Part shown: piece after piece, positions 4,763-8,826 of the stretch
Numbering within the stretch: position 1 is the first letter of the stretch
Layout of the letters: every line of letters begins with the position of its first letter
Origin: Treponema sp.
Lineage (GTDB): Bacteria; Spirochaetota; Spirochaetia; Treponematales; Treponemataceae
Assembly: GCA_024680155.1 (NCBI GenBank)
Contig: JAILCM010000267.1
Location: forward strand, 1-33,842
Length of the DNA: 33,842 nt
Reading direction: 5' to 3'
Made by a program: the position numbers and the translations under genes
Notes under the pieces: model-generated
What the model saw: the letters and a program-made list of their open reading frames with translations, nothing else
Told to the model about the DNA's origin: nothing
Database searches by the model: none

Positions 4763-4792
4763 TATGAGATGACCCGACAATCTCTGTACCGC

Positions 4793-4862
4793 AAAAAAAA
4801 ACTCCCAAAAAATTGTAAATTGATGTATAATAAATATAACAATTCTTTAGGGAGTTTTTTTT
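4793..4862 (+). terminator. Long A/T-flanked hairpin after metG, overlapping the next gene's SD and start
   Basis: An A-run plus CTCCC (4793-4806) pairs with GGGAG plus a T-run (4850-4862). The stem continues inward through AAATTG/CAATTC-type pairing to a loop at about 4816-4839. The GC core followed by eight T is a classic intrinsic terminator shape for metG. The GGGAG of the 3' arm is also the only plausible ribosome binding site for the TTG start at 4861, and the T-tract runs into that codon. Confidence 0.7.
4813..4840 (+). promoter_or_regulatory. Possible promoter for the cyclase pair, inside the hairpin loop
   Basis: TTGTAA (4813-4818) and TATAAC (4835-4840) are 16 bases apart; a better -10 match, TATAAT (4826-4831), lies between them but lacks a spaced -35. 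Starting here, transcription would begin near 4838-4848 and leave out the 5' arm of the hairpin, so the ribosome binding site would be free in transcripts from this promoter. Confidence 0.4.
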
Positions 4863-6846
4863 GTATATTAATAAACGGCGCATCTTTGTTTTTGTTATTT
4901 TTTTCTCTCTTTTGCAATTCGGCCTTTTTGCACAAAATAATCTTCAATATAATAAACTTGGTTTTGCAAGACTTGAATCTGGCTGGGAATTTTATCCGCG
5001 CAAAACACCTCAGGAACTTTATGAAATCTTAAAAAAATATACGGCCACCACGTCAACGGCCACAAATTCAGACTCACCGGCTGCTACACTCCCAAAAGAT
5101 TCAGTTTCATCAGAAGAAATCCAATCCTACACAGTTACCGTTCCTAGTTACTGGAATTCCATTTTTGCCGCAACCGAACATCCTGAACCAGACAATTATG
5201 GCTGCTATCATTATCAGCTGAAAAATCTGAATACTCACAAAAAATATGCGCTTTTTACAAAAGATTCGCCGGGAACTTCTTGTGCGGTTTATATAAATGG
5301 AAAACTTTCTGCCCAAACTGGAAATCCTTTTGAAATTCTTAAGCCTAAATCTCAGCGGACAAAATCATCCTGTTCACAAGTACTTCCGCTTTACGTTGAA
5401 TTTTCCCCTGATGTAGACGGCACCGCAGATATTATCTTTTTTATAAGCAATTATTTTTACAGAAAAGGTGGCCTTTGGGACTCAGTTTTTTTTGGTAGTT
5501 CCGAAACTATTACCCAACTTTATAATATCTTTTTGATTTTTACGGCAATCATCTCTGGTGTCCTCATTTTTATTGGACTTTTGAATATTCTACAATTTTT
5601 AATCAATACAAAACGAAAGGAACATTTTTTCTTAGGCGTTACGGCAACTGTTTTTGCATTACGAGTTGCAACAGCGGGCTTTAGTTTAATCACAATATTA
5701 ATTCCAGTTTTACCTTCCGAAATCGAAATCAAACTTGAATATCTTACACTTTGGCTTGCACCTCTTACGATTTTACACATGCTTTACGTGCTTTATCCTA
5801 CAAACAAAAAATACATCATTTTTAAATGGCTGAATGAAAAGATTTTCCGATGTACCTTTTTTGGTGTCTGCTATGGACTTGGAGTTACTTCTTTAATTTT
5901 GCCGGCTTATTTTGCAAATAGAATGGTTCCAATTTTGCAGATTGCTTTTGGTTGCATTGCAGTTTATGTTTTATTTTATATTATTCGAAACATTGTCCGC
6001 AAGAAAAAGTATTGTTACTATCATCTTATTGGATGTTTGTTTTTAATTGTTGGCGGCATTCTGGATATTTTTTACACAAAATCAAAAGATTTATTACCAA
6101 TTTCATTGTTTCCGTTTTTTCTTATGCTGTTTATTTTTGTTCAGCTTATTCTGCTTGCTACAATTCAAAATGATGTTTACAAAGAAACTGTAAAAATTTC
6201 TGCAAATCTTCAAAAACTGAATGAGGCGTATTTGCGTTTTGTTCCGAATGAATTTTTAAGGCTTTTGAATAAGGATTCTATTGTAAATGTTCAGGCTGGC
6301 GATTATACCGACATTGAAATGTGCATCATGTTTTCTAAGTTAAAAATCGTAAGCAACAATAATTCTTCAAGTCTTGATGACCATTTTGTAATTTTTAATG
6401 AGTTTTTAAAGCAAGCCTCTCCAATTATAAAAAAACATGGGGGATTTGTAAGTAAATTTTTGAGCGGCGGATTTATGGCACTGTTCCCGTCATCACAAAA
6501 AGATGCAATTTATGCGGCTTTAGAAATAAAAAAATGTGTTCAGCAGTTAGCTAATTCTAAACTTTGTGTTGCACATAAAATTAATGTTGGAATTGGAATT
6601 CATTATGGAAAAATGATTGCCGGAACTCTTGGTGAAGAAGGTCGCCTTGATGATACTGTAATTTCTGATACAGTTAATACGGTTGCAAGAATTGAGTCGG
6701 TTTGTGAAAAACTGGAAAAAAATATAATTGTTTCGCAGAATTTTGAAGCAGTAATTAAAGAAGAAAATTTCAGTTACGAAAAACTTGAATCAATCACTGT
6801 AAAAGGCAAATCTAAGCCGCTTGAATTATACGAAATAAAATTTTAA
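4861..6846 (+). CDS. 7TM-DISM receptor with degenerate class III cyclase domain (C2-like)
   Basis: A 661-residue membrane receptor. A signal peptide (about 1-25) precedes a periplasmic galactose-binding-like DISM domain with SGWEFYP and an FYRKGG motif. About seven membrane helices (about 222-436) lead to the linker RFVPNEFLRLL and a cyclase homology domain (about 485-661). The two metal-binding Asp of class III cyclases are replaced: Lys493 in FSKLK and Gly536 in SGGF. The substrate Lys532, Thr599, transition-state Asn606 and Arg610 (DTVNTVAR) and the VKGK lysines (648/650) are kept. Alone it should be inactive. The TTG start is supported by GGGAG 6 bases upstream and the signal peptide directly after it. 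It sits 15 bases before a paralogue with the opposite set of residues. Confidence 0.88.
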   Translation: MYINKRRIFVFVIFFSLLQFGLFAQNNLQYNKLGFARLESGWEFYPRKTPQELYEILKKYTATTSTATNSDSPAATLPKDSVSSEEIQSYTVTVPSYWNSIFAATEHPEPDNYGCYHYQLKNLNTHKKYALFTKDSPGTSCAVYINGKLSAQTGNPFEILKPKSQRTKSSCSQVLPLYVEFSPDVDGTADIIFFISNYFYRKGGLWDSVFFGSSETITQLYNIFLIFTAIISGVLIFIGLLNILQFLINTKRKEHFFLGVTATVFALRVATAGFSLITILIPVLPSEIEIKLEYLTLWLAPLTILHMLYVLYPTNKKYIIFKWLNEKIFRCTFFGVCYGLGVTSLILPAYFANRMVPILQIAFGCIAVYVLFYIIRNIVRKKKYCYYHLIGCLFLIVGGILDIFYTKSKDLLPISLFPFFLMLFIFVQLILLATIQNDVYKETVKISANLQKLNEAYLRFVPNEFLRLLNKDSIVNVQAGDYTDIEMCIMFSKLKIVSNNNSSSLDDHFVIFNEFLKQASPIIKKHGGFVSKFLSGGFMALFPSSQKDAIYAALEIKKCVQQLANSKLCVAHKINVGIGIHYGKMIAGTLGEEGRLDDTVISDTVNTVARIESVCEKLEKNIIVSQNFEAVIKEENFSYEKLESITVKGKSKPLELYEIKF

Positions 6847-6861
6847 CAGGAGGAATTGCAG

Positions 6862-8826
6862 ATGAAAATGAATAAAAAGTTGCACTTTTATTTTATTACA
6901 ATATTTTTGCTTTGTGTAAAAGTTTTTGCTGTTTCTCCAGCTGTTTCTGTCGCGCCACTTGCATCAGCCAAATCTGATAATATTTCTACATATAAAATAC
7001 AAAATCCTTTTGCTCTGGAAAAATACCGTCTTATAATTGAAACTGACTGGGATTTTTTCTGGGGACGCTTTGTACTTCCTTCCGAACTTACGGAGCCTGA
7101 TTTTCGAGTAAAAGTTCCATCAGACTGGAATAAATATAATCTTCCTGCACAGGCAAAAAAAATTGCAGCACTTGGTAAAGGTTCGGGAACTTACAGATTA
7201 CGGCTTACAGGGCTTATTCCAAAAAAGAAGTATGCAATTCCAACTTTTGAACTTGGTTATACCGCGTTTACAATGTATGCCGATGATGAAGTTATTTATA
7301 ATTCTGGAACTCCTTTTGAAAATTGGGAAAAAACTCTTGCCCAGCAATATTACGATAAAGCAGTTTTTACAGCCGATAAAGACGGTTCTGTTTTAATTTC
7401 AGTTCATGTTTCCAACGATTTTTACCGTAAGGGTGGAATGCGTCACGATTTTATTTTGTACGAACTTGAAAATTTCGAAAAATCTTATAAAAGAACGCTT
7501 TGTAATCACAGTATTTTTTCTGGCATTTTAATTACGATTATTACTTATTGTTTTTTGCTCGCTCTTATTAAAAAAGATAAAACGAATTTCTTTCTTGGGC
7601 TTTTTGTTTTAATCATTTATACAAGAATTATTTCTTCTGCATTTCCGCTGTTAAAAATCATTATTCCGCCAATTCCGCTAGAACTTTTGTTTAAGCTAGA
7701 ATATATTTCAGTATTTATGGGACCGGCTGTTTTTGCGCTTTATATGGATTCCATGAACAAAAAGATTTTTCATCATGTGCCGGTATTAGTTGTTGCAGCT
7801 CCTTCTGTTATATTTCTTATTCTTGATATTGCGCTTCCAATTGGTTTTGTAAATAGAATGGTTCCAGTCATGCAGGTTTATATGTTTTTATTGATTGGGC
7901 TGATGATTTTGTTGTTCCTTGTACGCGTATTCAAAAATAAAGATTTTACAAGTATTACGGCAATTCTATCGCTTTTAGTGATTTTGTTTGGTATGCTGCA
8001 TGATTTCTTTTTGCACAATTTTATTCCCTGGCAGACAATGCGCGACATAAAACTTTTGATTCCAAGTTTTGTTTTGTACGCTTTTATTCAGACAGTTTTA
8101 ATTGCGTATATTCAAAATAAAAATCAAAATAGGGTAGACGAGCTGAATGAAAATCTTACGGTTTTAAATAATGCGTATTACCGTTTTGTTCCAAAGGAAT
8201 TCCTTAAGTTTCTTAGTAAAAATGATATTACCGAAGTAAATCTTGGCGAATACAAAATTCAAAAAATGGCAATTTTGTCTGCTGATATAAGGAATTTTAC
8301 TTCGACTTCCGAAAACGTAGAAGGAATCCGTGTTTTTGAAATGCTGAATTCTTACCTTGGTAGAATTGCCCCTCTTATTAGAAAAAATGGTGGAATTATA
8401 GAAAAATATCTGGGTGACGGAATTATTGCAATTTTCCCGGATAGTGCTGAATCTGCTTTGATTTGTGCGGTAGAAATGCAGGAAGAAATGTGCGAGTTAC
8501 GAAAAGATTTTGTGGCAAAAGGACTTCCGCCTATAAAAATTGGAATTGGCATTCATTACGGAAACATTGTTTTGGGAACCGGTGGTGATTCAGAACGAAT
8601 GACCGAAATTTCACTTTCAAAAGATATTGATATTGCTGTTCACACAGAAGCTGAAACAAAAGAATTTAAACGTCCTATACTGGCGACCGTTCAGGCAGTT
8701 GGAGTTGCCGCTACAGAAGCAAAAGCAGAAGGGCGTACTTTTGATTTTTGTGGTAAAAAACTGCATGATTCGGATGGAAACGCGTTGTACGCTCTTTATA
8801 CCGAAAAGACTGGCATTGAGTTGTAA
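6862..8826 (+). CDS. 7TM-DISM receptor with class III adenylate cyclase domain (C1-like)
   Basis: A 654-residue paralogue of the preceding gene with the same plan: signal peptide (about 1-22), periplasmic DISM domain (TDWDFFWG, FYRKGG), about seven membrane helices, an RFVPKEFLKFL linker and a cyclase domain. Here both metal Asp are present (Asp475 in SADIRNFT, Asp519 in LGDG) with Lys515. The region that should carry the transition-state Asn and Arg reads SLSKDIDIAVHTE and has neither, and the C-terminal VKGK element is eroded to FCGKK. It is predicted to supply the metal half of a heterodimeric site with the upstream protein, making cAMP from ATP at the inner membrane. The ATG at 6862 was chosen because AGGAGG (6848-6853) is 8 bases away; TTG 6856 is too close. 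Confidence 0.9.
   Translation: MKMNKKLHFYFITIFLLCVKVFAVSPAVSVAPLASAKSDNISTYKIQNPFALEKYRLIIETDWDFFWGRFVLPSELTEPDFRVKVPSDWNKYNLPAQAKKIAALGKGSGTYRLRLTGLIPKKKYAIPTFELGYTAFTMYADDEVIYNSGTPFENWEKTLAQQYYDKAVFTADKDGSVLISVHVSNDFYRKGGMRHDFILYELENFEKSYKRTLCNHSIFSGILITIITYCFLLALIKKDKTNFFLGLFVLIIYTRIISSAFPLLKIIIPPIPLELLFKLEYISVFMGPAVFALYMDSMNKKIFHHVPVLVVAAPSVIFLILDIALPIGFVNRMVPVMQVYMFLLIGLMILLFLVRVFKNKDFTSITAILSLLVILFGMLHDFFLHNFIPWQTMRDIKLLIPSFVLYAFIQTVLIAYIQNKNQNRVDELNENLTVLNNAYYRFVPKEFLKFLSKNDITEVNLGEYKIQKMAILSADIRNFTSTSENVEGIRVFEMLNSYLGRIAPLIRKNGGIIEKYLGDGIIAIFPDSAESALICAVEMQEEMCELRKDFVAKGLPPIKIGIGIHYGNIVLGTGGDSERMTEISLSKDIDIAVHTEAETKEFKRPILATVQAVGVAATEAKAEGRTFDFCGKKLHDSDGNALYALYTEKTGIEL

Follow-up and report, generated by a model that had tools for sequence, protein, structure and literature searches.

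In a review of the field, bacterial class III cyclases are described as homodimerizing and a fused bacterial dimer as unknown (Schultz 2022, PMC9552081). In soluble guanylate cyclase, two genes encode unequal homologous subunits, alpha and beta, which together form one site. Among membrane receptors, the chytrid RGC1/2 proteins form an obligate heterodimer of receptor-cyclases with NeoR, in which each partner carries one sensor; RGC1/2 retain all the catalytic residues, and the obligate pairing has been assigned to the rhodopsin or linker parts (PMC8815786). We found no description of a split cyclase pair from bacteria in the literature we searched, a scope that left out most subscription papers.

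Here we analyze a stretch of 33,842 nucleotides from Treponema sp. (assembly GCA_024680155.1, contig JAILCM010000267.1), which we refer to as the window and whose source genome is 82% complete. After metG, the window carries two plus-strand genes, each encoding a seven-helix receptor-cyclase (Table 1). We propose that the products of this pair very likely form a membrane-bound class III adenylate cyclase that is an obligate heterodimer. A preliminary description had predicted such an enzyme, with one full active site, from the sequence alone. Our analysis supports this prediction; no biochemical test has been performed, however, and dimerization in the cell, catalysis, the ATP substrate and the product are all inferred.

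Two receptor-cyclases with divided catalytic residues

Both proteins carry the Guanylate_cyc domain (PF00211; 46.1 and 42.8 bits, Pfam cut-off 21.9) and the 7TMR-DISM_7TM domain (PF07695; 42.8 and 40.5 bits, Pfam cut-off 29). Their layout is that of 7TMR-DISM receptors, with an N-terminal ectodomain, then the PF07695 seven-helix domain and a C-terminal output domain. The ectodomains had no match among the Pfam ectodomain models, and NCBIfam contains no model for either the upstream or the downstream protein. The structural model of the upstream ectodomain (pLDDT 85.0) matches the N-terminal domain of GH2 beta-glucuronidases with a Z score of 13.3. This jelly-roll likeness, which rests on a predicted model, hints at a carbohydrate ligand without establishing one.

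The two genes are separated by a gap of 15 nt. The downstream gene likely starts at the ATG at 6862 rather than at the listed TTG at 6856, because an AGGAGG motif lies 8 nt upstream of the ATG, whereas the TTG adjoins that ribosome site. Separately, we observed a strong hairpin between metG and the upstream gene (window 4788-4872; MFE -20.1 kcal/mol, z -5.2). The AGGGAG ribosome site falls within its 3' arm and its T-run reaches into the TTG start, and the hairpin is therefore a possible metG terminator and start-hiding element.

The catalytic residues are split between the two proteins. In the upstream cyclase domain both metal-binding Asp are absent, and Lys532, Thr599, Asn606, Arg610 and Lys650 are present; in the downstream domain both metal Asp are present, and the Thr, Asn, Arg and last Lys are absent, with Asp and His occupying the Asn/Arg columns. 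A domain of the first type, with the substrate/transition-state residues but neither metal Asp, is referred to below as an NR half, and one of the second type, with the metal Asp but without Thr/Asn/Arg/Lys, as an ME half. In phmmer alignments to solved cyclases, K493 and G536 of the upstream protein lie opposite the metal Asp and the downstream D/H lie opposite the Asn/Arg. The same column assignment emerged independently when 168 relatives were aligned by HMM. Thus, the pair does not meet the criterion of a homodimeric-type cyclase, namely a complete catalytic set per chain, since each half lacks one set. It does meet that of a heterodimeric type, a complete set over two chains.

The preliminary description had placed Lys493 and Gly536 at the metal-Asp positions of an upstream protein that keeps Lys532, Thr599, Asn606, Arg610 and the VKGK motif, and had assigned Asp475 and Asp519, without Asn/Arg, to the downstream protein. 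The first assignment held by residue numbering, phmmer and the HMM alignment, and the second held with numbering counted from the ATG at 6862. Moreover, the claim passed one of the refutation tests set for it, as no catalytic residue proved to be shifted in the alignment. The description had also called the downstream VKGK eroded, which we correct here, as the motif is gone altogether.

Table 1. Coordinates of the receptor-cyclase pair and its features in the window
Feature	Position	Strand	Remarks
Putative ribosome site of upstream gene, AGGGAG	4849..4854	+	6 nt ahead of TTG 4861; in the 3' arm of the hairpin
Upstream gene (NR half)	4861..6846	+	Signal peptide, ectodomain, 7TMR-DISM 7TM, class III cyclase domain
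Upstream ectodomain	4942..5538	+	Predicted jelly roll; resembles N-terminal domain of GH2 beta-glucuronidases
7TMR-DISM_7TM of upstream protein	5536..6159	+	Residues 226-433
Lys493, upstream protein	6337..6339	+	First metal-Asp column
Lys532 to Gly536, upstream protein	6454..6468	+	Adenine-binding Lys to second metal-Asp column
Thr599, Asn606, Arg610, upstream protein	6655..6690	+	Adenine/transition-state residues
Lys650, upstream protein	6808..6810	+	Lys of VKGK
Putative ribosome site of downstream gene, AGGAGG	6848..6853	+	
Downstream gene (ME half)	6862..8826	+	Architecture as upstream gene; open reading frame listed from 6856
7TMR-DISM_7TM of downstream protein	7510..8106	+	
Asp475, downstream protein	8284..8286	+	First metal Asp; numbering from ATG 6862
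Asp519, downstream protein	8416..8418	+	Second metal Asp; placed by the same offset as Asp475

Conservation and origin of the split in Treponemataceae

A profile built from 24 relatives was used to search 274 genomes of Treponemataceae, together with order-level (294) and phylum-level (247) samples; scoring was limited to the leading candidates of each genome. At each fetched locus we read seven key columns and sorted the halves by their residues at the Asp, Asn and Arg positions. The resulting counts come from related genomes, many of them drafts, and are not independent. Tandem 7TM-DISM/cyclase pairs occurred in 8 of the 20 genera represented by the 274 Treponemataceae genomes. Both halves could be read in 56 pairs. 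Of these, 42 were complementary (40 with NR then ME, 2 with ME then NR), 13 were broken in both halves and one was broken/NR; none contained a self-sufficient half. Unpaired loci, by comparison, carried a complete site in 41 of 48 cases.

Since the halves were sorted on Asp, Asn and Arg, the fair tests of the split are the remaining columns. The Thr was present in 43/46 NR halves and 40/41 intact proteins, and in only 2/45 ME halves. Likewise, the VKGK position was Lys or Arg in 42/43 NR halves versus 3/42 ME halves, with neither residue in 39/42 of the latter. The NR half retained both Asn and Arg in all 42 cases in which its partner had both Asp, and in one of 14 when it did not, a comparison uncorrected for kinship. 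Freed catalytic positions vary widely, whereas the needed positions do not. The pair is therefore strongly conserved with the same residue split; its absence from relatives would have spoken against the original claim.

The genes are also tightly linked. Start and stop overlap or come into near-contact in almost all pairs, with a mode of -4 nt. The metG gene neighbours the pair in the closest relatives only, helicase/nuclease and oligopeptidase F genes flank several dead pairs, and unrelated genes are found elsewhere. Because the flanking genes differ among lineages, it is the pair rather than the region that is conserved. In the order-reversed lineage (loci L041, L046, L127 and L131), the residue roles track the protein family and not the gene position.

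Natural fusions were considered as proof of pairing. Two genomes, G019 and G029, have both genes in one open frame (L064, 3028-6843, 1272 codons; L067, 2944-6885, 1314 codons), but we did not use them as evidence, because a single-base error near the overlapping start and stop could mimic a fusion. In two single-contig genomes, the second gene of the pair is itself split over two frames (L051, 4153-6221; L071, 2714-4779).

The pairs dead in both halves are L042-L045, L109, L119, L123, L126, L129, L130, L132, L133 and L141. In those measured, dN/dS of the cyclase part was 0.06-0.20, below or about equal to that of the whole gene, and this conserved cyclase part points to a non-catalytic function. 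One side branch maintains pairs from which every catalytic residue has been lost. As for the seven unpaired loci without a complete site, four (L040, L047, L142 and L143) are halves truncated at contig ends. The other three, L052, L078 and L110, are degraded too, L052 at a contig end, so residue erosion is not confined to pairs. L110 (2278-5760), which comes from a different spirochaete family, encodes an unpaired 7TM protein of 1161 codons whose cyclase domain is fully degraded (SSEVSEP).

No tandem split was seen outside Treponemataceae in the order and phylum samples. Since scoring stopped at the best 4-5 candidates of each genome, absence outside the family is not shown, and the split is restricted to Treponemataceae only within the scope searched. 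This restriction, together with the intact unpaired relatives, the order flips with family-bound roles and the catalysis-dead pairs, goes beyond what the preliminary description had reported.

When the catalytic columns were excluded from the tree, the window-type halves fell into two sister groups, one NR and one ME, with the reversed-order lineage nested within, and another set of pairs (genera g3, g15 and g20) clustered among intact single enzymes. Full-length trees without these columns rejected a single NR clade (p-AU 2.3e-5) and a single ME clade (2.6e-4), and the sensor part alone gave a stronger rejection (6e-8). With the cyclase part alone, the NR halves grouped together with support 92 and the ME halves with support 94; here, the pairing of window-type halves was not rejected (p 0.30) and the other type was mildly rejected (p 0.03). 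Thus, the full-length trees and the sensor part speak for two separate duplications and the cyclase part alone for one, and at present we cannot choose between them. A bolder reading, towards which we lean slightly to the sceptical side, is that the Treponemataceae heterodimeric receptor-cyclases arose independently of those of eukaryotes, perhaps twice within the family, and were in some lineages fused into one reading frame like animal cyclases and in another retained without catalysis, as pseudo-cyclase receptors whose output is new.

Predicted dimer, proposed mechanism and alternatives

To obtain a one-chain model of the upstream cyclase and the downstream protein, we treated the lone in-frame stop codon that separates the genes as a residue. 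AlphaFold2 without templates gave a mean pLDDT of 80.8 and a pTM of 0.58. By VIA-align, 413 residues of the model core could be aligned with human AC8 at 2.6 A, and 402 with the AC9 soluble domain at 3.0 A. These two-domain matches scored Z 32-33, versus about 22 for single cyclase domains, which indicates that both catalytic domains superpose jointly in the animal C1/C2 arrangement. The geometry of the eukaryotic C1/C2 heterodimer is met, although by prediction only, and we regard it as plausible. As the model reads through a stop and AlphaFold2 would likely pair any class III domains, it makes a heterodimer feasible without excluding homodimers.

In our model, the two catalytic domains would pair head to tail. 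Binding of the two metal ions would fall to the downstream half, whereas its partner upstream would hold the adenine via Lys532 and Thr599 and the transition state via Asn606 and Arg610. The heterodimer would then have a single complete site, the other being a dead pseudo-site. Each subunit would be a 7TM-DISM receptor with its own ectodomain, and two signals would jointly set the rate of cAMP formation. Both the two-signal sensing and the sugar-like ligands of the ectodomains are inferences. ATP is argued to be the substrate because the Lys/Thr pair lies in the base-holding half. A cAMP pathway is plausible, as cNMP-binding proteins are present in the same genome; two of them have paired domains and one has the size of a CRP-type regulator. 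The former two, L144 and L145, each have two cyclic-nucleotide-binding domains in frames of about 400 codons and are possible cAMP receivers. About a quarter of the pairs are dead in both halves, so the enzymatic role is not universal.

Three alternatives were considered, all of which we judge very unlikely. First, the proteins could be pseudo-cyclases, whose cyclase domains bind only nucleotide or a partner, without catalysis. In support of this, 13 of the 56 pairs are catalysis-dead in both halves yet conserved (dN/dS 0.06-0.20 in the cyclase part). However, the window branch fixes the metal Asp and the Asn/Arg/Thr/Lys across divergent sequences, whereas the counterparts in the partner drift, a pattern whose simplest cause is selection for one full site.

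Second, the halves could pair with other class III cyclases of the cell as modulators rather than with each other, and the genome does contain at least five further class III cyclase domains. Against this possibility, the genes are adjacent and mostly overlapping over 8 genera and varied neighbourhoods, and the halves keep complementary residues and mostly lose them jointly.

Third, a heterodimer with guanylate cyclase activity or a mixed product would be in line with 2w01, titled guanylyl cyclase Cya2, being the closest solved homologue by sequence of the metal half, but Lys532 and Thr599 lie in the base-holding half (Thr being kept in 43/46 such halves), and the top matches of the upstream half are photoactivated adenylate cyclases. 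Lys/Thr is the adenine-type pair of bacterial adenylate cyclases.

Comparison with known cyclases

The heterodimeric adenylate cyclase that we favour can be set against several known systems. The bacterial enzymes CyaC, CyaB, Cya2, bPAC/OaPAC and Rv1625c resemble the pair in their domain fold and in having the residues of a site divided between two chains, but they carry the full residue set on each chain and are homodimers (PMC9552081). The preliminary description had called a strict division across two bacterial genes uncommon; judged by this review, which treats bacterial class III cyclases as homodimers, this was an understatement. PDB entry 6yii, a single chain from Pseudomonas aeruginosa that was deposited as a class III cyclase-like ATP-binding protein, can be superposed on both of the model's cyclase domains (Z 24.9, 358 residues).

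Soluble guanylate cyclase, the beta subunit of which is weakly matched by the upstream half, differs from the pair in being cytosolic and GTP-specific, with a haem sensor. The chytrid RGC/NeoR proteins are the nearest receptor analogue, but they are fungal and light-driven.

The conserved and strictly divided bacterial family offers a small system, amenable to expression, for studying why a cyclase is split and how two sensors jointly control one site. As intact ancestral-type, split, order-reversed and dead forms all survive in relatives, the steps that led to a pseudoheterodimer can be followed.

Mammalian transmembrane adenylyl cyclases resemble the Treponema pair in several respects: one domain supplies the metal Asp and the other the adenine/transition-state residues, one site is active and the second degenerate, and there are two membrane domains. 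By sequence, the counterpart of the upstream domain is the C2 side of human AC9/AC8; for the downstream domain it is the C1 side of AC5, AC8 and AC9. In contrast to the single-polypeptide, 2x6TM mammalian enzymes, the Treponema pair is bacterial, is encoded by separate genes, carries 7TM-DISM domains with large ectodomains, usually has the C2-like half first and has a class IIIb-like Lys/Thr pair. Animals and fungi are known to use such a split-site design, but it has been described as absent from bacteria.
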